Positions 17,673 through 63,934 of a DNA stretch of 64,000 nt are shown piece by piece. How positions within the stretch are numbered: position 1 is the first letter of the stretch; each line of letters starts with the position of its first letter. Under the pieces are notes generated by a model. It was not told the origin of the DNA and searched no databases. It was given only the letters and a program-made list of their open reading frames with translations. The translations under genes were made by a program, and so were the position numbers. The stretch is from Watersipora subatra (taxonomy: Eukaryota; Bryozoa; Gymnolaemata; Cheilostomatida; Watersiporidae): NCBI RefSeq assembly GCF_963576615.1, contig NC_088716.1:56947681-57011680 (forward strand). The letters run 5' to 3'.

Positions 17673-20600
17673 ATGTCAAATTACCACAAACCGCGCACCT
17701 TCAGAAGTCTTCTAGGCTGCTGTATCTGCAAGGCGAAGTCATCAACCTCACGGTTTACCGACAGCGATAAATATAAACTAAATTTCAGAAAGTGCTTCAG
17801 AGTGTATGACGGTTGGTACAGTTCTCCATTACTTTGAGTTTTAGTGTTTCAAAATTTTGTATATTAAAAACCTTTTGAATTATTTTGTACTACCTACATT
17901 TTTGTTTAGACCAGTGGATATTCTTCCCCTGTCAGATATGTTAACTTATTAAATCGAATAGCTGGACTTCTTCAAACATTATGGTAACGGTGCATCTTAG
18001 GTCGGTACCATGGGTGTACAATGCATGCGCAACGGACATACAAGGCACATGCAACACACAAATACTGTTGATACAACGCGCATACACTATCATCGCAACG
18101 CACATACAACGTTCAATAGAAAATAAATAGAATACTTTGTGTAATGTTTTAAACTTGTTTTATTAACAGACTATAAATAGAATATTGAATAATATAAAAT
18201 TATTACTACTATTATTATTTTTACACATTAATATTATTAATAATATTAATGTGTTAACAGTGTCACGTTGTGGCGCATGCGTTTTTAATTACTTGTGTCG
18301 GCATTGTATCCACAATGTTTTTGTGTTGCAAGTGCCTTGTACGTCCGTTGCGCATGCGTTGTATGCACGTTGTCCTGACGTAAGATGCACCGTTACCAAC
18401 ATTACTGATATGTTTCAATTATCAAGTGCAAATATCCATGGCGGGATAACTCGATTTGGTATTTACTCAAAGATGCACTCAACAATTGGATTGCTAATTG
18501 TTTTAATCTACTTTCAGTGAAATAAGATGCATATCTACACTTAGTAATTTCAGGTTTTCCTGTATAAATTTTTTTGTTGCGTTTATGACACCACACCGCA
18601 ATACCTTTTTATTTATATAGTAAAATATTTACACATATAACATGCTTTACACATAGTTTGTGTAAACATGGTTTGTGTAAATCATTTTTTTTATAAAAAT
18701 GATTATGAACTGCCCAAAAAAAGTATATCTATATATATTCCCAGACCGCACAGGAGACATCTGTAATGCTTGTGTCTTACTGATCAAAAGATGGAAAAAG
18801 CTCCCTCGTGGATCTAAGAAGAGCTGGAGTCACGTGAGTCGTTCTCTCTCTAATACTTATAATTATGTTAGTAATTGGTTTAGTGCCACAACCATGTGAA
18901 GCTTATGAGCTGCTGAACTCTATTAGGTGGTGGATGCTCGAGCGGTTCCTGGAACGAGTCACAAGAATGCCACAGCCCTGGTTCGGCAGCGAAGCAAGAC
19001 GCATGCAAACAAGGAAGATCCTGATCTGAAGATAAGGAAGATTATTAAATCAAGAGCAACGTCTGCTGCTAGCTTCAGCCAATCAAAGACCTCTTCTAGT
19101 AGTATGTTACACTAAGGCCCTATCTTTGTGTTTTGTGGGAACTTTTGATAACTAGTTTAGAATATAGGATTGGTTCTTAACTATCATACAATTCTATAAC
19201 CTAGTTTTTAGAATTGCAGATTTTATTTTACATTCTTACTCCAAACCCAAAACGAAATAAACTCGTTGGTCTGAGGTGAATGAAACTAGGGTAGATGACC
19301 ATAACAAGAGGATAACTCCAACATATGATCATATACATATGGAAGGGCAACTGTCAAGTAAAGTTACAATTACATTGATTATTAAAATTACAATTGAGTG
19401 GAGCTGGTTTAATTAATATCAAATACTTCAGTCAAACCGTACCAACCGATGTAAAAGATCCGGCATGATAATGGCATATTCAAGGGGTGTGAGCTGAATA
19501 TTGGGAAAACCACAATGAAGAATGCGAGTTGTTTCTATTTTCGGGTGAAATAATATATAAACTGTAACTATCTATTGTCAAGCGCTGTCAGGTAGTAAGA
19601 AGCTAAGACTTGTTAGTTTATACCAAGTTAAACTAACTATGCGATGATGTTGCAGGAGAGAGCCGTACAAGTCATCCAGGTGCTTGTGAGAGTCCTACAA
19701 TAACTGAAACATCTGAAGACGTGACGGATAACGACTCCCAGGCTGTCAGCTCTTTTTTAGATCTGGCCTATTGGAAACGGTAACACCGATCAGCGTTTTA
19801 GGATTGAATGTTACTTGCATGTTGTACCTGGAGAGAGACTAAATGTTACTTGAATGTTGTACCTGGAGAGAGACTAAATGTTACTTGCATGTTGTCCCTG
19901 GAGAGAGACTAAATGTTACTTGTATGTTGTACCCGGAGAGAGACTAAATGTTACCTGCATGTTGTACCTGGAGAGAGACTAAATGTTACTTGTATGTTGT
20001 ACCTGGAGAGACTAAATGTTACTTGCATGTTATACCTGGAGAGAGACTAAATGTTACTTGTATGTTGTCCCGGAGAGAGACTAAATGTTACTTGCATGTT
20101 GTACTTGGAGAGAGACTAAATGTTACCTGCATGTTGTACTTGAAGAAAGACTAAATGTTACTTGCATGTTGTCCCTGGAGAGAGACCAAATGTTACTTGC
20201 ATGTTGTACCTGGAGAGAGACTAAATGTTACTTGTATGTTGTACCCGGAGAGAGACTAAATGTTACCTGCATGTTGTACCTGGAGAGAGACTAAATGTTA
20301 CTTGTATGTTGTACCTGGAGAGACTAAATGTTACTTGCATGTTATACCTGGAGAGAGACTAAATGTTACTTGCATGTTGTCCCGGAGAGAGACTAAATGT
20401 TACTTGCATGTTGTACTTGGAGAGAGACTAAATGTTACCTGCATGTTGTACTTGGAGAAAGACTAAATTTTACTTGCATGTTGTCCCTGGAGAGAGACCA
20501 AATGTTACTTGCATGTTGTACCTGGAGAGAGGCTAAATGTTACTTGTATGTTGTACTCGGAGAGAGACTAAATGTTACCTGCATGTTGTACCTGGAGAGA

Positions 20601-23600
20601 GACTAAATGTTACTTGCATGTTGTACCTGGAAAGAGGCTAAATGTTACTTGTATGTTGTACTCGGAGAGAGACTAAATGTTACTTGCATGTTGTACTTGG
20701 AGAGAGACTAAATGTTACCTGCATGTTGTACCTGGAGAGAGACTGAATGTTACTTGCATGTTGTACCTGGAGAGACTAAATGTTACTTGCATGTTGTACC
20801 TGGAGAGAGACTAAATGTTACTTGCATGTTGTCCCTGGAGAGAGTCTAAATGTTACTTGCATGTTGTCCCTGGAGAGACTAAATGTTACTTGAATATTGT
20901 ACCTTTGGAGAGACTAAATGTTACTTGAATGTTGTACCTGGAGAGACCAAATGTTACTTGCATGTTGTACCTGGAGAGAGACTAAATGTTACCTGCATGT
21001 TGTACCTGGAGAGAGACTGAATGTTACTTGCATGTTGTACCTGGAGAGACTAAATGTTACTTGCATGTTGTACCTGGAGAGAGACTAAATGTTACTTGCA
21101 TGTTGTCCCTGGAGAGAGTCTAAATGTTACTTGTATGTTGTACTCGGAGAGAGACTAAATGTTACTTGCATGTTGTACTTGGAGAGAGACTAAATGTTAC
21201 CTGCATGTTGTACCTGGAGAGAGACTGAATGTTACTTGCATGTTGTTCCTGGAGAGAGACTAAATGTTACTTGTCTGTTGTACCCGGAGAGAGACTAAAT
21301 GTTACTTGTCTGTTGTACCCGGAGAGAGACTAAATGTTACTTGTATGTTGTACCTAGAGAGACTAAATGTTACTTGCATGTTGTACCTGGAGAGAGACTA
21401 AATGTTACTTGCATGTTGTCCCTGGAGAGAGACTAAATGTTACATGCATGTTGTACTTGGAGAGAGACTAAATGTTACCTGCATGTTGTACCTGGAGAGA
21501 GACTAAATGTTACTTGCATGTTGTACCTGGAGAGAGACTAAATGTTACTTGCATGTTGTACCTGGAGAGAGACTAAATGTTACTTTAGTACCTGTTGTAC
21601 CTGGAGAGAGACTAATTGTTACTTGCATGTTGTCCCTGGAGAGAGACTAAATTTTACTTGTATGTTGTACCCGGAGAGAGACTAACTGTTACTTGCATGT
21701 TGTACCTGGAGAGAGACTAAATGTTACTTGCATGTTGTCCCTAGAGAGAGTCTAAATGTTACTTGCATGTTGTCCCTGGAGAGACTAAATGTTACTTGAA
21801 TATTGTACCTTTGGAGAGACTAAATGTTACTTGAATGTTGTACCTGGAGAGACCCTAAATGTTACTTGCATGTTGTCCCTGGAGAGAGACTAAATGTTAC
21901 TTGTATGTTGTACCCGGAGAGAGACTAACTGTTACTTGCATGTTGTCCCTAGAGAGAGTCTGAATGTTACTTGAATGTTGTCCCTGGAGAGACTAAATGT
22001 TACTTGAATACTGTACCTTTGGAGAGACTAAATGTTACTTGAATGTTGTACCTGGAGAGACCCTAAATGTTACTTGCTTGTTGTACCCGGAGAGAGACTA
22101 AATACTTTTAAAAAACCTTTAGTCAGAACCCTATCGCATGTATATCTACTGTCCAACACCTTTTAAAATTGCTTAACTCAATCTAGTATTTCACTACTTG
22201 TGTGAACCTTCTCGTCTCTGTGTTATTATGCAATATTTATTTTGCATTGTATTTTATATTTATTCAAACGCCGCCACTCCTTCGAATGGCGCCACTCCTT
22301 CGAACGGCGCCACTTCTTCGAACACACCGTTTCATTCAAACCTCCTAAAACTATGTTTTAATTCTCTCGAAAAATTTAGAAATTGAACTTATATTAAGCG
22401 TTGTACATTTACACCTAAATAGATTTTACAAGTAATAAAGGTGTTCAGTGACTTATATTTTACCTCAACCTGCCAAAAGTCAGGACCTGCCAAAAGTCAG
22501 GACCTGCCAAAAGTCAGGACCTGCCAAAAGTCAGGACCTGCCAAAAGTCAGGACCTGCGTTTACCTACCGAAACATTATCCTCTTTACAGTTTGCCGAAC
22601 CGATCTAAATTCAGCAGTTACGGGTCTCAGAGAAAACAATCTAACAAGTTCAATGACTGCTTGTAACTTACCTAATGTCAAACAACCTTGGCCATTAAGT
22701 CAAGGGTGTTTGACCTTAGGTCAACATGTGCCTAAGCTTTTTAAAACCCTTTTGAACCCTTTCAAAGGTTAAGCTTGCTGTCACTTAATGTGTAGATCAC
22801 AGTCGACAAATACAGCTGCCTCAGCTCGGCTATACTCGATAAGTTAGTCTTCGATCTCTTCCATACATACACCTCAGCTTCCATTAACTTTTGACTACAT
22901 TCTATTTGAACAGCTTTCACCTTTACCTCACTACCATCAGCTGCCACTAAAGCATTCAATTACCTTTCTAATCTTTCGACTGTATTTTGTGGTTTGTCTC
23001 AAAACTTCAATCCCAGCATCAAACATGAACTCAGCATTCTTAATTACTCGCAAACCGTACACCATTTTACAGTCTAGTCATTTATCTTCACCATATTTGC
23101 TCGTGAATCTCACGTTTTTTATTTTTAGTGCTGTACTCACTGTTCTTACACCCTGTGCACTCAACAAATGCATTCTCAACCACTGCATAGTCGCTGCACC
23201 TCTCAATACTGTCCCTTCAATGTTCCTTACTGCGCTAATTCTTTCTTTCATCATTATAGTTGCCCCCCATTATTGTATTATTTTTCTATCCATACTATTG
23301 TATTATTGTTCTATCCATATTACTGTATTATTCTTTTATTCAAATTATTGTATTGTTCTTTTATCCATATTATTATCTCCTGCTCTATAGAACCACCTTT
23401 GATTCTTGTCAGTTGTCCCACTCATGTATCTATCAGTGCTGTTATTATTCGTTCTACAGAACTTTTCGCTGCTGCTTTCTCAACTACTGTATCTCTCATA
23501 ACCGCTGTAGTGGCTGCTGCCTTGCCTAACGCTACCATTTCCTTTGCTCTGACTGTGCCTATTCCAATTTTTTTTCATGGTTTTCACTATAATTCAAATT

Positions 23601-46700: not shown

Positions 46701-49700
46701 AAGTATTTGACCCGATGGCTGCACTCCGCTAGAAGTCTCATTGGTAGCGGCCGGTGAAAAGGGCAGAGAGTTGTAGTTGTTTATCTGAAAGTCATAAAAG
46801 TCTGGCTACATATCAATCACAGACTTTTTCTAAAATCAAGAAATCTATTATTATGATACTTTATCTATTATTATTAATCGAAGGGATTCGATTGGCTTGC
46901 TAACTAAAAATACCACCAATGATTTTATTATATCGAAAACTAAACCATCAACTCATGTGCTTATTTAGCTTGGAAAAATAAGTATAAAAGTAATTTTTTG
47001 TAAGCCTCTGTAAGATTTTATAAACCTATCATTCTTTTACCAGAATCGTATATTGTCTATCTTGTCTTACGCTGCTTCAAGCTAGTATCCCTTTGTGTTG
47101 AAAACTAATAAAGAAAAATTGAAACGCTTTCAAAAATAATGCTTTAGGGTTACGCTACCTGACATGGAAAGTTACTACCAGCGTCTAATTGCCTTTAATG
47201 CTGGGAAGCTAAATGCGTTTTTAGATATTTGCTGTTTGAAATACTCAAATCATATCTCCAATCCGCACTATCTATAACATTCCTACTTCTCTATAAAATC
47301 TACTACACCTTATACCAGACACCAACACCTTACCAATTTACATTATATAACAGTGCTATGCATAAACAGCTTTTTCTTTTAATACACAATAATTTACTTT
47401 ACTATTTTTTGTGGTTTTTCATCTCATAGTCTAATTTGCTCTAAACAGCATTGACCGGTATGAATAGAGTTATGAATAGAGTTATGAATAGAGTTATGAA
47501 TAGAGTTATGAATAGAGGTATGAATAGAGTTATGAATAGAGTTATGAATAGAGGTATGAATAGAGTTATGAATAGAGGTATGAATAGAGTTATGAATAGA
47601 GGTATGAATAGAGTTATGAATAGAGGTATGAATAGAGTTATGAATAGAGTTATGAATAGAGTTATGAATAGAGGTATGAATAGAGTTATGAATAGAGTTA
47701 TGAATCGAGGTATGAATAGAGTTATGAATAGAGTTATGAATAGAGGTATGAATAGAGTTATGAATAGAGTTATGAATAGAGTTATGAATAGAGTTATGAA
47801 TAGAGGTATGAATAGAGTTATGAATAGAGGTATGAATAGAGTTATGAATAGAGGTATGAATAGAGTTATGAATAGAGTTATGAATAGAGTTATGAATAGA
47901 GGTATGAATAGAGTTATGAATAGAGTTATGAATCGAGGTATGAATAGAGTTATGAATAGAGTTATGAATAGAGGTATGAATAGAGTTATGAATAGAGTTA
48001 TGAATAGAGTTATGAATAGAGTTATGAATAGAGTTAATATCTATCAAAGCGACGAGTAAAGAAAATTTAAAAAACATCCTTCAACAAGTATGCAGCGGTA
48101 GCATGGAGTTGTAAGTCCAAGTAGAAAAGACAAGATTGCTTGTTAGAAATTTAACATAGTTGACAATTTTTGTTCAAGTTGAGATATTTTTGTTCAAGTT
48201 GAGATGTATGCATAACTTTTAATTGTTAATCATAAAAATGATGTTAATCATTAAATGCTAAAAGGAAAAAAGAACAAACAGATATAAAAAAAATGATAAG
48301 CGAGTCAAACAAACGTCTTTTGAAAGTAGGTAATCTAATAGCATTGCGGAGGAGTCGAAAGATGATTAAGGAAATAGCTGCCTTATCATCTGATTGCAAT
48401 TGTTACTTTTGGTGACCGTGTAAAAGTTTCTAGCATCGCTAAATTAAATTGTTGCATGAGACGATAAAATGTTGTTGAGGATTAATTCTTGAGTACGTTT
48501 TTAAAATTGAGAAAGAAGGATTAAAATGAGCCTGACAAAGGCAGCTTTCTTTATAGTGCATTTATGTATCTTTTATCTCTAGGTTTAGCTGTACCGCCTA
48601 ATAGTCCATCAGCCAGGCATGGGCTAATATTTAAAAACTGGCCTGATACAATTAGATCTAATACTTTCACTTTGTGTTCCAATACTTTCACTTTGTGCTC
48701 CAATACTTTCACTTTGTGTTCCAATACTTTCACTTTGTGTTCCAATACTTTCACTTTGTGTTCCAATACTTTCACTTTGTGTTCCAATACTTTCACTTTG
48801 TATTCCAATACTTTCACTTTGTGTTCCAATACTTTCACTTTGTGTTCCAATACTTTCACTTTGTGTTCCAATACTCAATGTGAATATCCAATACTCAATA
48901 TGCATTGCCAATACTCAATATAAATATCCAATACTCAATATAAATATCCAATACCCTATTTGACAATACTCACGCTGACAATATCCAATACTCAATACCA
49001 ATACCCAACACTTTCTCAGACAACATCCAGTATTCAATATCTAATATAGTGAGCCTTTCTATTTTACATACCCACTATCAATATTAAATAGTTCCACACA
49101 ATTAGTTAACACCAAGTTCCAATAGAGTTTACAATATTCAATAGCATTGGGTAATGTATGTCCAATAATAATGAAAAATAGTGATCATCCCATGCCTGTC
49201 ATGAGCCATGAAAACATATAAAACTAGTAACTAAAACTGACTAAAACTATTGTTGGTTCTGTACTTGTACGAGTAAAATCAAACCTGAGAAGTTACAGAA
49301 GAAGCTGAGTCATTGCCTGTGCCAAGAAGTGCATCCCCCGGAGGCAGTGAAAGGCCATTGTTGGGATCTCCACCGCCCGCTAGCTTTCCTTCAGCAAATG
49401 CGGAAGCAAACTGCTTCATAACTACCATCTTCATTTCCTCAGTGTCAAGGACTGTATCACCTGTATGTATTCACATAAGCGTGACCAAAGCTGGAGACAT
49501 ACCACTATTTTCACAATACTTACAAATACTTTTCTGATTTTATCAGAAAGCATTGGCATTTTTCTATCATTTTTTATGTTTAAAGTGATCTGACTGCCAG
49601 GGTGTTTCAAGATTAAAATCAACCAAACTTGATTGCGGTTAAAACAATCAAATCAAGCAAAATTGTGATTGTGACGTCTGTCGTTGCAAAGAGACCAACT

Positions 49701-52700
49701 GAATAGAGACGGGTAACACTGCAATTTGAATGGAATAGTCAATATCAACTATAGTAGTTGGTGGAGTCATTTTGCACAAATTTTTTTTCTGAGCCTGTTA
49801 ACCAGGTTATTTCCTGTTAACCAGGTTATTTCCTGTTAACCATGGTTATTTCCTGTTAACCATGGTTATTTCCTGTTAACCATGGTTATTTCCTGTTAAC
49901 CATGGTTATTTCCTGTTAACCATGGTTATTTCCTGTTAACCAGGTTGTTTCATGTTAATCATGGTTAATTTTTGTCAATCTTGAAACATCCTGGCAGTCA
50001 GATCAACTCAAACATCAAAAACAATCGCAAACGATAGAAAAATACTGACACTTTCTGATAAAATCAACTAGAACTTCATGCAAGGTCATCTTTAAATGTG
50101 ATTTCAAGTGTGATATTAATGCAGTAACACAAATGATCTGCTACTAAGTAGATGAAAAAGCCAATGCGTTAACAACAAGGTCACATCTATATTTTGATGT
50201 AAAGAAAACAACTCTAACAATCTGTGGAAGTAGAATGATGCTGACCATAATAACCACTGCAATTCATGCTTTGAACTGGTTCAAAGTTGCTGCCACTCCA
50301 AATTATACAAGTAGAAACAATAAAATCCGAATGCCTTCACGACGTTTCGCTTTGCTGAATTTGTGCGAAGCTATTCGCTGTGAGAGTATTTTGACATATA
50401 TAAAAATGCTCATTGTTGGTGGATCTGAATTGAAAGTATTCTTGGCTAAGCTCTCTTCAGCACACAACCATGCGGGTCTCTGCTACGAAAACGTTCGACT
50501 GCTACTCGCTATCGTTTCTACTTGACTTTTTGTCTTTACATTACGATTTACATACCTGGGTTGCTCGTAGGAAGATAGCGATATAATATTGGCCAATAAA
50601 GTAATATATATACAATGACTTTTAGTGCAACTCGTTGCCTACACACAAATTGAAAAGCGACCTTGACCCAAAAGTGAGCCTACTTTAAAGATGTATCCTA
50701 ACTACTCTCGATGTATCCCTCAAAACAAAATAAGTTTGGTTTTGAGGGATATACCACGAGTCTTGGAGCGATCTATGCAACTCTGAAACACGAATGCAAG
50801 ATGCAACTCCATATCGTTAAAACAGTTGGATGCAAACTCATCCTCATCGCGCAACTCCGAACCCATTCTAAGCATGCAAACACAGTGAATGTATCATCAT
50901 CATACATATGGAGAAATTCTGACCATTATTACAGTACCGAAATTTTTCTGATCCACCCAAACTACTGTTAGAGTGAATGAACTCTGACCTTCTCCAGCAA
51001 CTTTGAGAGTGCCAACCAAGCCAGCGAGTTTGCCCAAGGTTCCTTGCACGCTAGCTCCTATATCGTCTGAGGTAGGTTCACCAGCTGCCCTCCTTTTCCT
51101 CTTTCGTTCAGCCAGCACTGGATCAGCAGCCTACAATTAAATGTATTGCAATATAAACTGGTTGTAACAATTAAGGCAAACGGCTTAGCGATCCTTGCCA
51201 TTCGCAGCAAAACATAAAAGGAAGACACAGAACTATCTGTGTCTTCCTTGTAATAGCCATATTTTTCAAGAAATGGCTATAACAAGAAAAGATTGCAACG
51301 TTAAAAACGGATACCAGTTAGCTTGTGCACTTTGTATCTATAAAATATTCTCTCAACTCTAATAAGGCTGAGTATAAATACCATCACATAACTACATCTG
51401 TTTTTCAATTGACAAAAAACAATACGTAACCGTAAAAGGGATCAGTTCATCAAAACAAGTAGAAAAGTAGATGAAACAAAATCTTAAAACCACAAAAAGG
51501 AGGTAAATAGATGAGAGGTTATTATATTGGATATATATAGAGGTCATTAGATAAGATGTTATTATGCTAGCTTATATGGACCAGACCGTGCAGACACCAA
51601 CCTCAGCAGCTTGTTGAGCTGCTACTCCTCGTTGGGCTCGAGCACACGAGTCAGCAACTAACTGCACATTCTCATTCACCGTTTCAGAGTCCAAACTCGC
51701 AGATTCTGCTTCTATACGGTCTGTAGATGTTGTTGTGATTGTAGCAATTTTGTCCAAAGTTTCCTCATTCATCTACCATTAATAAATGATTACGTGTTAA
51801 TGCAATAGAAATATTATATATTATAATATGTTATAATACGTGTTAATGTAATAGAAATATTATATATTATAATATGTTATAATACGTGTTAATGCAATAG
51901 AAATATTATATATTATAATATGTTATAATACGTGTTAATGTAATAGAAATATTATATATTATAATATGTTATAATACGTGTTAATGCAATAGAAATATTA
52001 TATATTATAATATGTTATAATACGTGTTAATGCAATAGAAATATTATATATTATATATTATAATACGTTATAATACGTGTTAATGTAATAGAAATATTAT
52101 ATATTATAATATGTTATAATACGTGTTAATGCAATAGAAATATTATATATTATAATATGTTATAATACGTGTTAATGCAATAGAAATATTATATATTATA
52201 ATATGTTATAATACGTGTTAATGCAATAGAAATATTATATATTATAATATGTTATAATACGTGTTAATGTAATAGAAATATTATATATTATAATATGTTA
52301 TAATACGTGTTAATGCAATAGAATTATTATATATTATAATATGTTATAATACGTGTTAATGCAATAGAAATATTATATATTATATATTATAATATGTTAT
52401 AATACGTGTTAATGCAATAGAAATATTATATATTATAATATGTTATAATACGTGTTAATGCAATAGAAATATTATGACGGTTGTTTACAAAAGATAAGAA
52501 GCACACGGGCACAAACCTCTTTGGGATTACTGCCAAGGCTGCTAGCGGCCTGCGCAATGGCTTGCACGTTGTCTAATGTTTTCATTTCTAATGTACTTAG
52601 AGTACTGGCGACTCGACTTTTTAATTCAATCGCTTGTTCTTGTTTTTGAAGTATTTTCTCTTCGCTTTCCCGTAGTTGCTCTTCACTATCCTGAGAATAC

Positions 52701-55700
52701 AACGAGAACATTTGAAGAAAATTTCGAGAAAGCTACAGCACAATTTGTATTACTGAAAATCATAAGTCATAAATCATTCAATCATAAGTCAAACTATGGC
52801 TAACCACACTCTCCACTGCGCTAATATCCTCTGTGATAACTAATTCATCTGTGAGAGGTTCTTCAGCCTGTTCCTCTTGAGCCTGGTCATTATCTACACT
52901 CTGCATCAAAGCCTCCATGCTATTGGCCGCCTTGTTAACATCTCCCATGGCCATTTCGGTGACGTCGATAGAGTCATACACAATTGGCTTTGGCATCACC
53001 TAAATTTAAACATTGTAGAAAGTTGAAATAATTTGAACATTTAGCAAATGTTTGGCTTAGTGTTTCTTCGTAATATATAGACATGTAGTATATATCATGA
53101 GAATCCTACCGTTACGGTCATAGGTTCAGACATAGTTTTTCCACCAATTGCGTCTCTAGCTCGAACAAAAATTTCATATTCATAGTTGTATTCAGGTGAT
53201 CCTGGGCCAAGCACCATTCCACCTGATGCATCTGTAGCAGAGGGGCGGTATGGTGCCCAACCAATCCGAGTAGTGCCTTTACGCCTTTTGCCGATCTATT
53301 GCAGAAGATAACATCACAACCGATCAACTACATGGCTGTCAATTATTTATAAAATTTATTAAACAGAGAGGTGTCAGGGTACAAATAAACTACAGTTATA
53401 CCTCGATATGTGAGCTTAAATTGTTCCAAGACCGAGCTCGCATGTTAATTGTCTTGTATCTCAAATCAATTTTTTCTACATAAAATAACTCAATACAAAT
53501 CGAATCACTCTCACCATCTGTAAAAACTACATAAAACAGGATTTTACAGGAAAACATGTTTTTAATTGTTCTAGTTTACTACCTACCCTCACAAAGTAAC
53601 AGGTACTTATCTAGTGGATATGGTCTGCAATAAAATGTAACATAATGTAATGTAATAAAATGTAATATAATGTATAGAGTTCTACCTTAGAGACAGATGT
53701 TAGTGGCTAACGGTGTGTGAAAGAGACTTGATGGCAACATGTTAGGTAAGCTAGACTTCGTGACCTACATGTAGGCCAAATAAAATAAACTTCACTTAAA
53801 TGAACTGAGTTTACTAAACACACACGTAAAAAATAAGTTGATTTTATGTTGCACGAACTTAATTCTAACTTGATTTTCATTTTACTTTTTCTTTTTGCTT
53901 TTTCTCTTTTTATTTTTGCTTTTTACCTAGCGGAAGCATCGAATGCATCAGCAGCATCAAGCATCACCTCGTACGCTTGTATCTCAACATTGTCTTGGAG
54001 CTCAAGGCAAAAAATTGCTCGAACTTCTCATATCTCAAACTTCTCATTAGTTGGGACACTCACAATGTCGAGGCATGACAGTATTCGGTATCGCAGAACA
54101 TTTCGGTTTTTAGCAAAGGCAAATCTTGAATTTTTTGTTTTATATATGTTAAACACCGTGGATATAATCTGTTTATTGTTGCAAAATGTATTGTACATGT
54201 ATATAAACTGAAAAGGATAATAGCTTCTCACTGTAGACAAAGAGCGCAAGGTGTTCTCTTCATGGTTTTATAGATTCAAATGCCAAAAAGAAGCTTGCAT
54301 AAAGTTTACCTGATAGAAAACAGGTTTGTGTTGATCTATAAACTCAGTGCAGTTCACATTGTATAAAGTTTCTCTAGCTGTACCATTCAAAGGAAATGCG
54401 GTGCAGTTGCCTTGCTCTGGAGGTTCGTTCACTTGAAAAGCATTTACCGCAATTCCAAAATTATGACGATCATTTCCTCTCCAAACCTTTACAGCCACGA
54501 AATAACTGTAACAGATTAATAATGCTTTTAAGTATTTCATGTCTGCAGGTATGACCCGAAATACTTCAGCTGTGTTTTAAAACTCAGCTGAATCTAAAAC
54601 TCAGCTGAATCTAAAACATGGAGCAAGACTTCTTTGAATACCCGTCTCCTTAGTATAATTCTTTTCTGTATTGAAACTTGAAAACATGCCAAGCACTCCA
54701 AAATAATGACAAAAAAATTGACAGAACAGATAAGTTCACAAATCACTAATGTGAGGTGGGCTTTACCAAGAGCTTACAACTCCCAATAGTTTGCAAGAAA
54801 TATCGTTTAATGCTTACTATAAATCAACACTGTCAAAAGAGAAGAATCCTGGTTCCAAAGCAAATGACTGCTGTCTGTTCCCAGTTGCCACCATTGTTAG
54901 TTTATTAGCTGGTCGATTCTTTTCCCATCTGTAAAAATATCAAGGTACATGCATGTAATCTATTATTTTGCAGACCGCATAGCGACTTACTGCCCGCTGC
55001 TGGCATCTACCAAAACTCCTTTGAACTCTAGCGGCTTCAACTATCAAAGTTCTTACTCTGATGGAAGAATTTCTCGAAGAAGCGGGTCAGCAAAGTCATT
55101 CACTGGACTTTCATAGAGCTCCCATGTATAGCTGTAATCGCCTTTCTTGGCTACGTGAGCATTCATAGAGAAGATAGTCTCATAGTTGACCTTGTCCTAT
55201 ATGCAATCAACAATTCTCAGTTAGAAACGGAACAAGGGTTTTCTGAAGTTAAAACATAAAGTAGATACGTGAGAAGCTCTTGGGTGAGCAAGTTCACTCA
55301 AGTTCACTCAAGTTCACTCAAGTTCATCAACAAATTAACTTGGATATACCGCTTGAAGATAAACTTACACAAAAATCAAATAGATTCAATCAGAAAATAT
55401 TGGTATGTTTTATCAATTATGATTAGTTTTTTATATTTGAAGATGATCTGACTGCCTGACGATCTGACTGCCTGATGATCTGACTGCCTGATGATCTGAC
55501 TGCCTGACGATCTGACTGCCTGACGATCTGACTGCCTGACGATCTGACTGCCTGATGATCTGACTGCCTGATGATCTGACTGCCTGACGATCTGACTGCC
55601 TGACGATCTGACTGCCTGACGATCTGACTGCCTGATGATCTGACTGCCTGACGATCTGACTGCCTGATGATCTGACTGCCTGACGATCTGACTGCCTGAC

Positions 55701-58700
55701 GATCTGACTGCCTGACGATCTGACTGCCTGACGATCTGACTGCCTGACGATCTGACTGCCTGACGATCTGACTGCCTGACGATCTGACTGCCTGATGATC
55801 TGACTGCCTGACGATCTGACTGCCTGATGATCTGACTGCCTGATGATCTGACTGCCTGATGATCTGACTGCCTGATGATCTGACTGCCTGATGATCTGAC
55901 TGCCTGATGATCTGACTGCCTGACGATCTGACTGCCTGACGATCTGACTGCCTGACGATCTGACTGCCTGATGATCTGACTGCCTGACGATCTGACTGCC
56001 TGACGATCTGACTGCCTGATGATCTGACTGCCTGACGATCTGACTGCCTGACGATCTGACTGCCTGACGATCTGACTGCCTGACGATCTGACTGCCTGAT
56101 GATCTGACTGCCTGACGATCTGACTGCCTGACGATCTGACTGCCTGACGATCTGACTGCCTGACGATCTGACTGCCTGACGATCTGACTGCCTGACGATC
56201 TGACTGCCTGACGATCTGACTGCCTGACGATCTGACTGCCTGACGATCTGACTGCCTGACGATCTGACTGCCTGACGATCTGACTGCCTGACGATCTGAC
56301 TGCCTGACGATCTGACTGCCTGACGATCTGACTGCCTGACGATCTGACTGCCTGACGATCTGACTGCCTGACGATCTGACTGCCTGACGATCTGACTGCC
56401 TGACGATCTGACTGCCTGATGATCTGACTGCCCGGGTGTTTTTGACGGTGCGTTGAAAATAAAATCAACTAAACTTGATCGCTGTTAAAATGCTCGGAAA
56501 GAAATAGTGGCTCTCACTAGTTGCTATCGTTGCAATAGTTGATATCGACTTTTGTGTTGAAATTAAGCATTACGCATCTCTATTCTGTTGGTCTGTTTGC
56601 AATTATAGCCATCATGATCGCACTTTCTCTTGATCTGAGAGTTTTAACCGTAATCAAGTTTTGTTGATTTTAATCTTGAAGCACCCTGGCAGTCAGATCA
56701 CCTCAAACATCAAAATCAATCGAAAATAGTAGAAGAATATCGACAATTTCTGATAAAATCTACTGAAATTTTGTGTAAGTTTATCTTTAAATTAAGATCA
56801 AATATATTTGTGAGAAAGGATTAAAAGCAGATTGAAGACAGTTGCAACAGACAGAAAGTACAATAGAATACTCTGATATCTTATAACAACACCTTAAAAA
56901 AATACTATAGCTACAACCTAATAACCTTTTTGTCTCATGACTTTTGCTAATCTAATCTTAGACAATAAGATATCTACTTTTATCTATTTATATATCTATT
57001 TACTGAAAAACTGATTATAAAGTCACGCTTTGCTGTACCAACAACTGTAAATTTTTCTTCACCTAAAATATATATGTATCGCTACTGAAGGCCCGGCGTT
57101 GCACGGGTAATAAAAAAAGTTTTTGCAAAGAAAATTTATTTTTAATCAACATATACAGTATCTACCAGGTGAAGGTGTTCGTTTATTTTTGCGTACTGTG
57201 TTAATTTCTGTGGTCTGTGTTTATTATTTTGTCTATTTCTGTGTAATCCATATCATATTGGCAGCGCCTATGACAAATTTATACTAATTGTAATAGTACC
57301 AAGTTGGCAATGGGTTAAAGCATTTTCTTCACGTATGAACATGCGTTTTTCTTCTAGAATGGCTTCATGCATTTTATTCCAGTATGGCTTCTCGCATAAC
57401 GCTAGCTGCCATATTTAATGTGAAGCATGAAAGACTGGCATGTTTACTATGTACGTGCCAAATTTGTTCCATAGTTTATCCAGTTAGACAGCATAGTCTC
57501 ATAGTGTATTGGATAAATACTGCTCCGCAAAACTAGAGGTTATGAGTTTAAAACCAGTCAGCAGCAGATTTGTAATTTTAAAACTATATCGCTATCAGCG
57601 AACAGACAAATATTGAAATATATAAATTTAAAGTAAATAATAAAATAAATATAGCTTGCATAGAAACTGCCAAAGACATCCAATAATATTTGATAACCAA
57701 CCAACAATGTTATAGTTTCATAAGAAAATGTAGTAATATTACAAATAAAGTCTATATTATTTATTGCTAATGTGATGTACTTAACCTATCCCTAATTGTT
57801 CAAAGCCTGCCAAGAAATGCATTCTAAACTTCACTGTTGTTCACAATATGAATAATATCAGTGCATTTTAACGTATGCCTTGCCAAAAAATTTCCAACGC
57901 ACCTCCAACTAAACTATAAACAATAAAACCTTATAAATAATCAAACCAATTATAGATCAGTATATTATAGATGAGTATATTATAGATCAGTATATTGTAG
58001 ATCAGTATATTATAGATGAGTATATTATAGATCAGTATATTGTAGATCAGTATATTATAGATCAGTATATTATAGATGAGTATATTATAGATCAGTATAT
58101 TGTAGATGAGTATATTATAGATCAGTATATTATAGATGAGTATATTATAGATGAGTATATTATAGATCAGTATATTGTAGATGAGTATATTATAGATCAG
58201 TATATTGTAGATGAGTATATTATAGATCAGTATATTGTAGATGAGTATATTATAGATCAGTATATTATAGATCAGTATATTATAGATGAGTATATTATAG
58301 ATCAGTATATTATAGATGAGTATATTATAGATCAGTATATTGTAGATGAGTATATTATAGATCAGTATATTATAGATGAGTATATTATAGATGAGTATAT
58401 TATAGATCAGTATATTATAGATGAGTATATTATAGATCAGTATATTATAGATGAGTATATTATAAATCAGAATATTATAGATCAGTATATTATAGATCAG
58501 TATATTATAGATCAGTAAGGCTCTCATACATGTACTAGCGAGAACTTTACTAACATATTAGTTTTTTGTTTTAAATATTATAAATACAAACCTGCCTAAC
58601 CAATAATTTAGCTATATATTATTGATTAAATTAACTATTAATTACTATTATTAATTTAATTATTAATAATAACAAGAAAAATTCAAAAGGAAGCCCCACC

Positions 58701-61700: not shown

Positions 61701-63934
61701 TGAGAGACGCTAAGCTTACCTATGCGGAAATACATGGCGTCCATTGCCCAGATATATTCGTCTTCCATTGTCACATTCAGCGTCACCTTGTATCTGCCAT
61801 AATTGAGCAGTAATGGTGGAATCACTAGTATGTCCAGAGGAACGTCATAGAAGGCGGAAAAGAAGGTTACATTTTCGAGGGGGAGCTAAGGAGAAATAAT
61901 GCCACTAGTTTAGTGTGCAACTTAGGGCATCCAAATCGTAACTTGAAGCAAATCGTAACATATGTCGCAACTTGAGGCATCCAAATTGCGTGGTGATATC
62001 TAAGGCAGCCAAGACACATCTCGCGACTTGAGGCAGCCAAATCACTCGCGCAACTCAAAGCAGTCAAGACTAATGGTGTAACCTGATAAAGCAATGATGA
62101 ATGGTCCATTTTAATTGCATATAACTTTGTAAAACTAACCACAAAAACGATGAAGAATGAATCATATGCATGCAATGTAAGCCTACTAGACATCTGTGTA
62201 TTTGTGTAATCTAGTCTAGTAGATCGTTTTTATATGATCACCTTTTCATCGCTTTCTTGGTTAGTTTTACAAATAGTTTTATGGTAGTCTGTGCATTTGT
62301 GTAACCTATACAGTAACAAAATTCACTTACCCACTCCTCAAAGCCATCCTCGTCTACTGAATACAAGATCCACTTGTAATCTGCTAACCTCGTAGTCGTG
62401 CAGTTGAGACCGATGCCCGACAAGATTGAGATATATTGAGACTTGTAGAAGACCTAAACAAGATGATGAAATAATTCTAAACATTGTTAACTACACTAAA
62501 AAATTGAACTAAAACCATGAGAAGAAAACTTCGTAAAGCATCAACGAAAGAACCTGAAGTGATACGATTATTCTAGAAGCCTTCTGAATAAGCTTTGTCA
62601 GCTTCCTATACAACAAACATACGAATTTTTCCTAGTGAAATATTTGTTCTATAGATAAATGAGATTGGTCTGCGTATCAGGTGAAATTCTCACATTTTAA
62701 TTTTACCCTGGAATACACCTCCAAGGCTGTAATGTCATGCTGTTTCTATAAGAATCAGTCTTACTTGTTGAGTGCTCACACAAAAAAACACAAGGACTGT
62801 AGATAGAGGAGCTATGAGCTACACCGCTGTTATTGTCAGCACGAAATTTGCGACAGAAAGAATTGAAGTTCAACTGACTGACCTTCTCTCCGTCTCGGCA
62901 TAGCGGTTCACACGGGTTCGTAGAGTGCACGTTCACTTCTGGACTGAAGCATGGTCCTTTCGTGATAGCAACATGCAGTTTTACAACATCTACTGAGACA
63001 CGGTTTATCCCCGTCAAAGCCAACCTCTGGGTACTCTTTGTGCCAAACTTGAAAACTCGATCGACACAAAATTCACCATTGTTTTTCTTTTCGTCTTCAA
63101 GGTGCTTCATAGTGTAGGCAGTGAAATTAAGAGGTATTTCCGCCATCTCCAACTTGAAGTAGTCGATACAGGCTAAAAATTGTCAACGAGGATTATAGTT
63201 ACACAATAACAATATTATGTTCGACTAATTATTCTCAGAAAATCTGCTTTGTAAGTGTTTGAACAAAACTTATATATAACGTTTTTAACTTTTCAAAAAC
63301 TCACAAAAACATCTTAATAAATGAAACACTGCTTTAAAGGTAAACTTGCACCAATTTTAGTAGATTTTATCAGAAAGTATCTGTATTTTTATCATTTGTG
63401 ATTATTTTTGATGTTTGAGGTGATCTGACTGTCAGGATGTTTTAAGATTAAAATCGACAAAGCTTGATCGGGGTTAAACGCCCAGATCAAGTAAAAGTAC
63501 GATTACGACGTCTATAGTTGAACCTATGTATAGAACCCAGTAACCAATATCAACGATAGCGACACTGACAGTTAGTGACGTCATGTTCCACGTTATTTTT
63601 TCTGAAGCTGTTAACCATGGTCAAGTTTTGTCGATGTTAATCTTGAAACATCCTGGCAGTCAGATACCCTCAAGCATCAAAAATTGTATGCAAATGATAG
63701 AGAAATACCGACATTTTCTGATAAAATCTACACAAACTTTGTGTAAGTGCATCCTTAGTTACAATGAATTATGCCTGTAATTTGTGTTTCTGTATTACCA
63801 GGAATATACATACAAACAAACCTACTCGCAAACATAAAAAAAATTGTGAAATATCACTCACTATCCTTGTTGCCAAGGAAAACATATCGGTTGCCAACAG
63901 GAAACTCTTCCGTGCCCGTATCCCTGAAGTCGAT
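27663..63934 (-). CDS. Polycystin-1-like protein (REJ-GAIN/GPS-PLAT-polycystin channel), 5' partial
   Basis: Thirty-seven exons join in one frame (7116 nt, 2371 residues plus stop). Exons: 63862-63934, 62883-63172, 62331-62453, 61720-61885, 60636-60767, 59935-60102, 58858-59045, 55057-55196, 54818-54928, 54310-54505, 53110-53295, 52805-52999, 52517-52690, 51602-51772, 50989-51130, 49285-49460, 46458-46784, 46094-46220, 44691-44870, 44206-44365, 42870-43103, 40968-42151, 40714-40846, 38899-39055, 38207-38421, 36399-36582, 36128-36293, 35456-35572, 33798-33917, 33523-33684, 32162-32325, 31193-31351, 30970-31081, 30339-30482, 29046-29185, 28756-28888, 27663-27829. Order of domains: REJ, GAIN/GPS, one helix, PLAT, ten helices including the polycystin channel, short acidic tail. 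These are plasma- or ciliary-membrane receptor-channel proteins. The N-terminal ectodomain lies beyond the right edge. Subfamily (PKD1, PKD1L1-3, PKDREJ) is not resolved. Confidence 0.93.
28495..28695. repeat. Tandem repeat, 14-bp unit, degenerate
   Basis: Variants of CTTACAGGCAAATG repeat about 14 times in the intron between the last two polycystin exons. Confidence 0.8.
30540..30960. repeat. AT-rich low-complexity intron stretch
   Basis: Almost only A and T, with many ATTATTATA- and TAATTATAA-type words and local inverted repeats. No gene content; lies between polycystin exons 30339-30482 and 30970-31081. Confidence 0.6.
33140..33477. repeat. Minisatellite, 16-bp unit, 21 nearly identical copies
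   Basis: ACATTCCATATGACTT repeats with only one clear variant (GACTAGC near 33256). The array ends about 45 bp before polycystin exon 33523-33684, within its downstream intron. Confidence 0.95.
33523..40846 (-). CDS. Polycystin-1-like: central helices and extracellular polycystin (TOP) domain exons
   Basis: Exons 40714-40846 (loop ending YKLPWGF), 38899-39055 and 38207-38421 supply the next pair of helices ([29 protein letters not shown]) and a charged cytosolic loop. Exon 36399-36582 gives channel helix S1 ([20 protein letters not shown]). The TOP/polycystin-mucolipin domain follows: [29 protein letters not shown], two Cys with [22 protein letters not shown] across 33798-33917 and 33523-33684, [19 protein letters not shown] and [16 protein letters not shown]. 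These are the strongest family signatures in the gene. Confidence 0.92.
35635..36030 (-). mobile_element. Modular tRNA-related repeat, short form (copy 2)
   Basis: On the minus strand it starts ACTAGCAGGATGCCCGG and TGTTGCACGGGTATTAG, shares AATCAGCTTATAAACAGTGA and CTGGCACATTGCCAATGG with copy 4 at 40240, and ends with AACCGGACATACCGAAGGAC. It sits in the intron between polycystin exons 36128-36293 and 35456-35572. Confidence 0.7.
37051..37739 (+). mobile_element. Pogo-like (TA-flanked) element, 689 bp, unexpanded copy
   Basis: Left end CAGTCATACCTCGACATCGA; the reverse complement of the right end is CAGTAATACCTCTACATTCG. TA flanks both ends (37049-37050, 37740-37741). Its minus strand contains TTCAAATGTGTGTTTAGTAA followed by GTTAAATTAA, the single-copy counterpart of the array at 4305-5487. 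No transposase. Located in a polycystin intron. Confidence 0.8.
39158..39430. repeat. Self-complementary TATATACGGTATATATACCG repeat
   Basis: Alternating TATATACGG and TATATACCG blocks make both short direct and inverted repeats over about 270 bp, so the stretch can form hairpins or cruciforms. Open frames on both strands are artefacts. In a polycystin intron. Confidence 0.9.
39540..40243 (-). mobile_element. Modular tRNA-related repeat, long form without tRNA part (copy 3)
   Basis: Inverted relative to copies 1 and 5. On the minus strand it begins ACTAGATGAATGCCTAGG and continues TTTAACATATAACAACAG, then the body (GGTACCTCTCGATACTGG region near 39715). It ends before the tRNA-like portion. 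It lies head to head with copy 4; the two heads are separated by a TATATAC palindrome. Confidence 0.65.
40240..40610 (+). mobile_element. Modular tRNA-related repeat, short form (copy 4)
   Basis: Begins ACTAGTGGAAATCCCGG and CATTACACGGGTATTAAAAA, matching copy 2 along AATCAGC...AACAGTGA and CTGGCACAATGCCAATGG. It ends around AGCTATAACTGGGCAAGC. In the polycystin intron downstream of exon 40714-40846. Confidence 0.65.
40968..42151 (-). CDS. Polycystin-1-like: GPS end, first membrane helix, PLAT domain, next two helices
   Basis: One large exon of 1184 nt (residues ~1219-1614). It starts with the end of the GPS ([19 protein letters not shown]), then a linker, a helix with [17 protein letters not shown] (~1300-1316) and the PLAT domain (~1341-1459: [71 protein letters not shown]). 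These are close to the polycystin PLAT consensus, a cytosolic lipid- and protein-binding beta sandwich. Two hydrophobic segments follow ([35 protein letters not shown]), then a Lys-rich loop. Confidence 0.93.
42508..42840. repeat. Minisatellite, 19-bp unit, ~17 copies
   Basis: GTATGTACAGAATCTAGAT repeats with a few substitutions towards the left side. It is in the polycystin intron between the two exons that split the GPS, ending about 30 bp from exon 42870-43103. Confidence 0.94.
42870..53295 (-). CDS. Polycystin-1-like: stalk and GAIN domain exons (residues ~530-1219)
   Basis: Eleven exons. The first (53110-53295) is beta-rich ([18 protein letters not shown]). Exons 51602-52999 are helix-rich and acidic ([20 protein letters not shown]), as in the helical subdomain A of GAIN. 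Exon 50989-51130 contains a basic stretch [10 protein letters not shown] that could be a furin-type site. Exons 42870-46784 form the beta-rich GAIN part ([17 protein letters not shown]) and end with [17 protein letters not shown], the first half of the GPS. Its second half is in the next exon. GPS function is discussed in the findings. Confidence 0.82.
43250..43440. repeat. Long near-perfect palindrome A (~90-bp arms)
   Basis: The arms are reverse complements around a centre near 43345. Each arm contains TCTGAAGAGTGCAAGCCTAC, CGCACAAAACTTTAAG and TAATAAAATGTTTTACC. A very short loop is left. In a polycystin intron, next to palindrome B and a TA-rich tract. Confidence 0.93.
43460..43612. repeat. 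Long near-perfect palindrome B (~65-bp arms)
   Basis: The arms share GAGAGCA...TGCTCTC and CACCAAGCATGAAACTAATA, then GTAATAAAGTGTTTTAT and TATAGTCTGTTTTA. The layout matches palindrome A (core, GAAAC or AAAAC, TAATAAA, TGTTTTA), so the two belong to one family. Confidence 0.93.
43678..43731. repeat. (TA)n microsatellite
   Basis: About 25 uninterrupted TA dinucleotides just beyond palindrome B. Confidence 0.95.
44925..45965 (+). mobile_element. Modular tRNA-related repeat, long form (copy 5)
   Basis: Same order as copy 1. The head is ACTAGCTGTACTACCAGG with GGGTAATAAAAAGG, then the body with ACTGGTACCTCTCAATACTG near 45470. Box A TAGCTCAGTGGTAGA is at 45807-45821, and a degraded box B (GTTCAAATTCATC) is near 45860. 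The tail includes AGCTATAGCTGGACTTACCG. In the polycystin intron between exons 46094-46220 and 44691-44870. Confidence 0.72.
46785..47456. other. Intron stretch without recognised features
   Basis: AT-rich polycystin intron sequence between exon 46458-46784 and the 12-bp array. No repeat or RNA gene seen. Confidence 0.5.
47457..48036. repeat. Minisatellite, 12-bp unit, ~48 copies
   Basis: TATGAATAGAGT alternates irregularly with TATGAATAGAGG; two copies read TATGAATCGAGG. Because 12 is a multiple of 3 it yields long stop-free frames on both strands, which are not genes. Confidence 0.96.
48660..48960. repeat. Minisatellite, 21-bp unit (~10 copies), grading into an 18-bp unit
   Basis: Units contain CCAATACTTTCACTTTGTGT. 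To the right the array changes into CCAATACTCAATATAAAT copies that share the CCAATACT start. Open frames on both strands are artefacts. Confidence 0.93.
49513..50095. mobile_element. GATCTGACTGCC-family inverted-repeat element with a 20-bp array inside
   Basis: The left end contains GATTTTATCAGAAAGCATTG and GTGATCTGACTGCCAGG. The right end on the other strand contains GATTTTATCAGAAAGTGTCA and TTGATCTGACTGCCAGG. The interior matches the copy at 63336 (GACGTCTGTCGTTG versus GACGTCTATAGTTG; GTCAATATCAACTATAG versus ACCAATATCAACGATAG). In a polycystin intron. Confidence 0.8.
49795..49955. repeat. Tandem repeat, 20-bp unit, ~8 copies
   Basis: CTGTTAACCATGGTTATTTC is repeated; some copies lack AT. 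It lies inside the element at 49513-50095. Confidence 0.93.
51205..51290. repeat. Two adjacent small hairpins
   Basis: GGAAGACACAGA, four bases, then TCTGTGTCTTCC: a perfect 12-bp stem. It is followed by AGCCAT...ATGGCT. Intronic, function unknown. Confidence 0.6.
51790..52475. repeat. Minisatellite, 46-bp AT-rich unit, ~15 copies
   Basis: Units contain TACGTGTTAATGCAATAGAA then ATATTATATATTATAATATG; a few carry an extra TATATTA. The second half is close to palindromic. In the intron between polycystin exons 52517-52690 and 51602-51772. Confidence 0.94.
53393..54081 (+). mobile_element. Pogo-like (TA-flanked) element, 689 bp, unexpanded copy
   Basis: Left end CAGTTATACCTCGATATG; the reverse complement of the right end is CTGTCATGCCTCGACATT. 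TA flanks both ends. The interior matches the split halves of the copy at 3939-5897 in reverse orientation: ACCTTAGAGACAGATGTTAG, AGAGACTTGATGGCAACATG and CTTGGAGCTCAAGGCAAAAA. In a polycystin intron. Confidence 0.8.
54310..63934 (-). CDS. Polycystin-1-like: REJ-module exons (residues ~1-529 of the fragment)
   Basis: Ten exons encode an extracellular REJ (receptor for egg jelly) module, known from PKD1 and sea-urchin sperm receptors. Diagnostic is [19 protein letters not shown], formed across the junction of exons 60636-60767 and 59935-60102. The donor at GACG/GTGATC, not the longer open frame, gives this match. Also seen: NCTMD with a preceding WRWQW-like run, [17 protein letters not shown] at the end of 58858-59045, and [17 protein letters not shown] in 54310-54505, the usual close of the module. 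Many Asn-X-Ser/Thr sites fit an exposed, glycosylated domain. Confidence 0.88.
55290..55326. repeat. Short tandem CAAGTTCACT repeat
   Basis: About four copies of a 10-bp word just outside the element at 55355. Confidence 0.8.
55355..56789. mobile_element. GATCTGACTGCC-family inverted-repeat element with a 1-kb array in its left repeat
   Basis: The left end reads GATAAACTTACACAAAAATC; the right end on the other strand reads GATAAACTTACACAAAATTT. Further in, both carry a TTGA(A/G)...TGATCTGACTGCC block: once on the right (56690-56705) but expanded on the left. The remaining interior matches the sister copies (CCGTAATCAAGTTTTGTTGA). In a polycystin intron. Confidence 0.85.
55442..56431. repeat. 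Minisatellite, 16-bp unit, ~62 copies
   Basis: GATCTGACTGCCTGAC repeats; the last base is C or T. The single minus-strand open frame across it is an artefact. Confidence 0.97.
57085..57620 (+). mobile_element. Modular tRNA-related repeat (copy 6)
   Basis: The head CTACTGAAGGCCCGGCGTTG with CACGGGTAATAAAAAAAG is the best preserved in the window. The tRNA-like part near 57485-57575 (ATAGTCTCATAGTGTATTGG; GAGGTTATGAGTTTAAAACC) differs from copies 1 and 5. In a polycystin intron. Confidence 0.6.
57952..58517. repeat. Minisatellite, 15-bp unit, ~37 copies
   Basis: GATCAGTATATTATA with two variable sites (C/G in GATSAG; A/G in ATTRTA). Variants occur in patterned runs, which suggests multi-unit duplications. 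Confidence 0.96.
59145..59175. repeat. Tandem GGAGTAACGGTA, three copies
   Basis: A 12-bp word repeated three times in the intron upstream of polycystin exon 58858-59045. Confidence 0.85.
59279..59675. repeat. Tandem repeat, ~42-bp unit, ~9 copies
   Basis: Units combine AACAGAAACAACATGACGCA with CACACGTATACATATAAC; CA-dinucleotide length varies between copies. Open frames are artefacts. Confidence 0.92.
60290..60550. repeat. Degenerate ~20-bp tandem repeat
   Basis: Variants of CTAGACATGCTAATCTATAA repeat about 12 times and decay leftwards. In a polycystin intron. Confidence 0.75.
61318..61403. repeat. Tandem repeat, 19-bp unit, ~4 copies
   Basis: CACCTGCTGACATTGTCAT repeats almost exactly. 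In a polycystin intron. Confidence 0.9.
61915..62070. repeat. Degenerate repeat of CAACTTGAGGCATCCAAAT
   Basis: About six diverged copies in the intron between polycystin exons 62331-62453 and 61720-61885. Confidence 0.65.
63336..63757. mobile_element. GATCTGACTGCC-family inverted-repeat element, unexpanded copy (~420 bp)
   Basis: The left end contains GTAGATTTTATCAGAAAGTA and GGTGATCTGACTGTCAGG. The right end on the other strand contains GTAGATTTTATCAGAAAATG and GTATCTGACTGCCAGG. CTGTTAACCATGGTCAAG occurs once near 63607. No coding frame. This copy represents the unexpanded state for both arrays born in this family. In a polycystin intron. Confidence 0.85.

Follow-up and report, generated by a model that had tools for sequence, protein, structure and literature searches.

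The window analysed here, a 64,000-nt stretch of the Watersipora subatra genome (contig NC_088716.1, C9 in the coordinates below, positions 56,947,681 to 57,011,680 of the forward strand), contains three copies of a family of short inverted-repeat elements, and in one of these copies a 16-bp unit built around a block of family sequence is tandemly repeated within the left arm. We think that this array is a minisatellite which arose in situ, within an arm of an old copy of a miniature inverted-repeat transposable element (MITE) that is non-coding and flanked by TTAA, and that it most likely has no role in transposition; we would put the probability of this reading at about 0.82.

The array-bearing element extends from TTGA to TTAA (55353-56790). 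Direct counting yields 62 GATCTGACTGCC blocks between 55445 and 56432, with all 61 gaps equal to 16 bp, and Tandem Repeats Finder (TRF) reports the same interval as an array of 61.8 16-bp units with 98% matches and a score of 1857. Across the 61 full units every position is invariant except the final base, for which 44 units have C and the other 17 have T. The right arm holds a single block, as the reverse complement at 56688, and the arms pair in inverted orientation at 72% (55353-55440 with 56703-56790). Both counts therefore bear out the original prediction that an array of about 62 units occupies the left repeat only and that the right repeat keeps one block. The same prediction had taken the unit for a 16-bp piece of the inverted repeat, which holds for its origin in the arm, 12-13 of the 16 bases being family block, and fails for the four-base linker (TGAC or TGAT), which is not in the arm consensus.

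Array-free copies of the family are about 430 bp long, have arms of about 150-200 bp and typically start with TTAA followed by AGATGAACTTRCACAAAAT. Among 22 family copies, exact TTAA is found at 12 left ends and 11 right ends, and on both sides in seven; the commonest ends start with AGATGAACTT. The family is abundant: an exact 24-base outer-arm pattern occurs at 477 places in the genome (0 in the control), 6,123 first-look candidates emerged from a DNA search, 40 of them being scored, and the 13-base block TGATCTGACTGCC has 3,820 exact matches, array units included, compared with three for its reversed control. Tandem TGATCTGACTGCC blocks were not seen among the 100 of these 3,820 matches that were listed. 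Being short, bounded by terminal inverted repeats and present in high copy number, these elements have the properties of MITEs. Judged on two window copies, they are without coding capacity: stop-to-stop frames overlapping the array-free copy do not exceed 78 aa, and the array copy owes its long frames on the minus strand, of 345-362 aa, to translation of the 16-bp array. The array-bearing element is an old, small and probably immobile piece of mobile DNA.

As to its affiliation, a TTAA target duplication with terminal AG is given as the hallmark of Kolobok elements and of the Xenopus T2-MITE (PMC6004289; this and the other articles cited by PMC number are drawn on in excerpt), and terminal CC[C/T]T with TTAA as that of piggyBac MITEs (PMC2872659). 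The piggyBac hallmark does not fit the family, whose commonest ends start with AGATGAACTT and not with CC[C/T]T. The TTAA and terminal AG of our family would fit the Kolobok hallmark, a lead to be read with the caveat that the family ends were set by an alignment starting with TTAA, a palindrome that could be the repeat's own tip. We did not find the family described in the literature searched, which did not extend to Repbase and most subscription journals, and a text search with the block letters gave nothing relevant among the matches listed (biomedical and probably primers, judging by their titles).

Block arrays elsewhere in the genome

The genome search for further arrays and their flanks that the original prediction had called for was carried out. 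In the 784-Mb genome, the exact 16-bp unit is tandemly repeated at a single locus, that of the window, and all other matches within one mismatch are single. A looser pattern of block followed by block occurs at 227 places, compared with none for the reversed control. Our survey covers about 100 of these 227 places, up to C7:51593686, and 100 of the 115 places of another looser pattern, including all 84 on the plus strand, together with one narrower pattern that is complete; further block-array loci may exist. Within this scope, the block is tandemly arrayed at 15 or more further loci, one of them a segmental duplicate, with units of 16, 23, 24 or 26 bp (Table 1). The commonest unit length is 26 bp, found at at least 11 loci (10 without the duplicate), followed by 16 bp with at least three, and the 16 loci listed comprise 13 unit types.

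The edge of the array is visible at 14 of the 16 listed loci and consists of family arm sequence every time. Eleven loci were read across both edges, and in nine of these the arm with the array was recognised on its outer as well as its inner side; the remaining two, L043 and L094, have a recognisable outer arm and an inner arm that can be followed for just 13-20 bp or so past the array before the sequence changes. Both arms are retained in eight of the eleven (the left arm of L043 in part), and L039, L040 and L042 keep the array-bearing arm only. Three others, L096 (in part), L097 and L099, were read at the outer edge only, where the family outer arm is present. The unit thus matches a segment of the surrounding transposable element and the rest of the element flanks it, as is characteristic of minisatellites derived from such elements.

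Two of the 26-bp loci, L045 and L046, lie about 32 kb apart and are homologous for about 1 kb past the right end and about 20 bp past the left end. These duplicates differ in unit number (94 and 60), and arrays therefore change their length in place. A further 26-bp locus, L044, has two right-arm pieces with 5 and 27 units between its positions 966 and 2471, as if arm and array had been duplicated.

Table 1. Family copies and their parts in the window, and block arrays at other loci of the genome.
Feature	Position	Strand	Details
Left target site	55353..55356		TTGA, probably decayed TTAA; layout of 22 family copies
Left outer arm	55357..55444	+	Starts AGATAAACTTACACAAAA; 80% identity to arm consensus
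Tandem array	55445..56432	+	62 x GATCTGACTGCC, 16-bp spacing, linker TGAC (44) / TGAT (17); TRF, direct count
Left inner arm after last block	56433..56498	+	CGGGTGTTTTTGACGG...AAAATCAACTAAACTTGATC; final 39 bp 87% identical to arm consensus
Middle segment separating arms	56499..56633		
Right inner arm	56634..56687	-	89% identity to arm consensus
Lone unexpanded right-arm block	56688..56699	-	GGCAGTCAGATC
Right outer arm	56700..56786	-	88% identity to arm consensus
Right target site	56787..56790		TTAA
Second family copy	49513..50095		One block per arm
Third family copy	63334..63758		Without array
L093	C9:29.76M		16-bp unit, linker AGGT, both arms, 16.4 and 11.4 units
L094	C10:3.245M		16-bp unit, linker AGAT, 13 units, left arm only; edge/linker variant AGAT
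L041	C3:14.16M		23-bp unit, dimer
L095, L100	C10:44.58M		24-bp unit
L039	C1:70.48M		26-bp unit
L099	C2:33.48M		26-bp unit; edge/linker variant AAGAT
L040	C2:38.26M		26-bp unit; edge/linker variant CAAGGT
L042	C3:39.33M		26-bp unit, 81 units
L043	C4:13.70M		26-bp unit; edge/linker variant GATGT
L044	C5:60.33M		26-bp unit; edge/linker variant GAAGT
L045	C7:51.56M		26-bp unit, 94 units
L046	C7:51.59M		26-bp unit, 60 units, segmental duplicate of L045
L098	C10:19.86M		26-bp unit
L096	C10:26.70M		26-bp unit
L097	C10:36.04M		26-bp unit

Origin of the arrays

GATGTTT direct repeats at a spacing of 26 bp lie on either side of the block in the arm consensus, and with 7 nt the exact direct repeat at this offset is longer than at any other from 8 to 60. 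The 26-bp arrays with a visible inner edge rejoin the family sequence in register. Moreover, at five of the 13 loci with an outer edge, a non-consensus variant is common to the edge of the host and to the linker (Table 1), and the array of L094 is a clean repetition of its host's AGATGATCTGACTGCC. Because the units differ between loci and such variants are shared with the host arm, most arrays appear to have arisen separately and in place, and these two features of the sequences are the main evidence for that view. The starting point would be the thousands of family copies with one block each; a duplication between short direct repeats, by replication slippage or microhomology-mediated repair, would be the first step, and slippage or unequal exchange would account for the subsequent growth, once the element no longer moved. 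Small duplications within the block of single-block arms, at L047:1553, L050:1482 and L052:1525 (TGACTGCY twice or nearly so, or TGCC twice) are possible earliest steps.

Other parts of the family sequence are also found in arrays. At L071:3902-4200, in another family copy, a 21-bp unit from the outer arm is repeated 14 times with 100% matches, and a 5-nt ATTTT repeat occurs at offset 21. In the window, the copy at 49513-50095 carries another expansion, a different array of 8.9 20-bp units beside its inner right arm (49794-49967), whose unit CCTGTTAACCATGGTTATTT contains the palindrome AACCATGGTT; a single comparable segment is present in the third copy, near 63610.

A number of observations count against separate birth in place or are silent on it. 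Two of the 16 listed loci (L098 and L095/L100) were read inside the array only. At four of the 13 outer-edge loci (L039, L045, L046 and L096) the edge is uninformative, with consensus-type GAGGT on both sides, and at another four (L041, L093, L097 and the window) the linker mismatches its own edge, that of L093 and of the window copy being unlike the outer edge of the host. A consensus-like unit is common to L039, L096 and L097, and a shared origin of these three is possible, the comparison being limited to the unit. Direct repeats, furthermore, account well for the 26-bp unit and poorly for the others: the 16-bp register is found at no fewer than three loci (L093, L094 and the window) with a consensus seed, AGG...AGG, of only 3 nt, and the seeds of the 24-bp unit and the 23-bp dimer are 3 nt and 1 nt long. 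Lastly, the uniformity of the array in the window could reflect homogenisation rather than youth, and its C and T units are weakly clustered in their order (P 0.055). 

Both GATGTTT repeats have degenerated in the window copy, where they read TATATTT and GGTGTTT, as would suit a register other than 26 bp. In favour of separate birth, common descent of the three 16-bp arrays is unsupported by arm identity, the array arm in the window being 0.81 and 0.76 identical to the other 16-bp array arms and 0.71-0.80 to other arms.

How does separate birth in place compare with the alternatives? Tandem arrays are common in this DNA, with 14.9% of the window in TRF arrays of score >=150, and an independent satellite could have been captured by the element or could have invaded it. 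We consider this scarcely credible, given that the exact unit is arrayed nowhere else, that the block belongs to the arm of the family itself, and that no block array outside the family was seen among the 16 loci listed, whose edges, visible at 14, are formed by the family arm; the original prediction had named wide occurrence outside the element as the sign of such a capture, and none was found among the matches listed, two loci being read inside the array only. Foldback elements, of which Tetris and Galileo are examples, are defined by tandem repeats within both terminal inverted repeats, an arrangement that is absent from the window copy, with its array in the left arm only, and present in L093. 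The arrays might thus be functional in the way proposed for foldback elements, with extra arm motifs, such as a transposase-binding site, raising mobility and being spread by transposition. A role of this kind has been proposed for Tetris, with Galileo cited (PMC4079207), and both the matching arrays in the two arms of L093 and the abundance and retention of the block (3,820 exact TGATCTGACTGCC matches compared with three in the reversed control) would be in line with it. We nevertheless regard a functional role as very improbable. None of 40 sampled copies carries a block array, the 13 unit types at 16 listed loci imply that no single array-bearing lineage has spread widely, the window copy combines an old element with a near-uniform array, and the only shared pair of arrays seen, in L045 and L046, stems from a segmental duplication in which about 1 kb of the right flank was duplicated as well.

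The sample just mentioned consists of 40 of the 43 outer-arm matches listed on C1 (of 477 genome-wide; three C1 matches were omitted), 20 of them read with 5 kb and 20 with 1.1 kb, and it contains no block array at a TRF score of >=60 or of >=50 (0/40 in either case). We also compared all arrays in 38 paired elements, from this sample and the window, with the expectation from 168 kb of flanking sequence, a comparison in which the inclusion of the window favours arrays: the elements hold three arrays against an expected 4.1 at a TRF score of >=150, three against 5.0 at 100 and five against 8.0 at 60. The pairing rule left out the array of L071, with which the counts become 4, 4 and 6. The idea that the family is a hot spot, breeding arrays above the level of other DNA, was therefore rejected, arrays being no more frequent than in the flanks. 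The window as a whole is rich in arrays, with 80 TRF rows that include 66 units of 35 bp at 19807-22103 and 38 units of 15 bp at 57949-58517. Given how common tandem arrays are here, the block arrays look like ordinary products of a general process, made traceable by a repeated sequence.

The outer arms of the window copy are 80% and 88% identical to the arm consensus and the inner arms 87% and 89%, and a near-uniform array inside arms of 80-89% identity suggests that the expansion probably postdates the insertion of the element. Decay of methylated CpG was considered for the C/T variants of the unit and is unsupported: the C form creates a CpG, and there are 17 changes of CG to TG and none of CG to CA. 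In DNA folding, the array-free copy at 63336-63757 is predicted to form one long hairpin (-101.9 kcal/mol, z -17.25). For the window copy (-105 kcal/mol predicted), outer ends and inner arms are still expected to pair, while the array would fold into a large structure to the side. The original suggestion that the asymmetry of the arms matters for mobility finds no support in an old copy with a near-uniform array that probably expanded after insertion. The array as a former of structure was rejected as well, four units folding no better than shuffled sequences (z -0.27). As far as the sequence allows a judgement, the array most likely has no part in transposition.

A copy with arrays in both arms

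In L093, opposite arms carry the same 16-bp unit, and they match in further details. Both share a truncated inner junction, GATCTGT(A/G)GATGTTTC, and a derived variant unit, GACTACC, which in either arm makes its first appearance at unit 7, counted from the outer edge. Three sites genome-wide have this junction, namely the two arms of L093 and L101 (C9:28343200-28344050), a family copy that is 78.6% identical to L093 over 294 bp and that has the L093-type deletion (net 6 bp) in the block of one arm, without an array.

Copying from arm to arm, by conversion or template switching, is the likeliest reading of this one locus, judging by the agreement of the arms in unit, truncated junction, variant unit and the first position of that variant, and by the rarity of the junction. 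Such copying would complement separate birth in place, with an asymmetry like that of the window copy as the first stage and the symmetry of L093 as the second. We give this two-stage account nearly an even chance, given that the evidence for it comes from one locus, that L101 has the deletion without an array, that the inner edges of L093 differ, with three and two ordinary units following the last variant unit, and that conversion would need to end almost at the junction, no more than a few bases from it, as the arms differ further on. More tentative still, and in our view somewhat improbable as a whole, is the proposition that about 15 of thousands of near-identical 12-bp blocks were independently arrayed in a few registers set by direct repeats, and that at least one array was copied from arm to arm to yield a foldback-like element.

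Relation to known systems

The birth of tandem repeats within mobile DNA is already known, and this family is another case. How such a birth began usually has to be deduced from one example whose original state is not known; in this family, that state is documented by many copies without expansion (3,820 exact 13-base blocks, array units included). This permits a direct comparison of separate births in their rate, register and edges, and makes the family a repeated natural experiment. For instance, the role of direct-repeat length becomes testable, with a 7-nt repeat at 26 bp and a 3-nt repeat at 16 bp, and L093 offers a case in which to ask by what route the two arms of a foldback element acquire the same repeats.

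In Xenopus, the tandem repeat Xstir is said, going by the title of a report by Hikosaka from 2000, to be amplified and transposed jointly with its terminal repeat. It is found with Xmix, a T2-A1 MITE of the Kolobok superfamily (PMC6004289, PMC9659126), and as far as these excerpts go, the likeness is that of a short TTAA-flanked element whose end starts with AG and whose internal segment has been tandemly amplified. Unlike Xstir, most arrays here have a unit of their own, and the sampled copies are without arrays. A minisatellite inside a MITE is likewise seen in BrickBuilt of Porphyromonas gingivalis, which has 23-bp units and small inverted ends (PMC4596501); that element is bacterial, is itself made of the tandem repeat and, in the excerpt, occurs 19 times in one strain.

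Recurrent origin within the copies of one family is also described for human minisatellites derived from Alu and other transposable elements (review PMC9659126). Alu is a retroelement and the review, where excerpted, gives totals, while here one 12-bp block has been re-used in a few registers. Tetris of Drosophila virilis, with its TIR-220 repeat, resembles our family in that part of a terminal inverted repeat (TIR) has become a tandem repeat of variable number, a change interpreted as duplication followed by unequal crossing over, and its larger arrays have been suggested to disrupt transposition (PMC4079207). According to the same excerpt, it has one family-wide unit of about 220 bp that has grown into satellite arrays, whereas several unit types exist here and none was seen outside the element among the loci listed. 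Lastly, Galileo of Drosophila has direct tandem repeats in its TIRs, which in D. willistoni are limited to a single copy, and sequence that was inserted into one TIR ends up in both (PMC4168063). Both features, in so far as they are described there, are shared with our family, namely direct tandem repeats within the inverted arms and, as L093 suggests, material of one arm reaching the other; yet the units of Galileo, a P-superfamily element, are about 140 bp long, with TIRs of 4.2-4.7 kb in one copy, and those of our family measure 16-26 bp in arms of about 150-200 bp.

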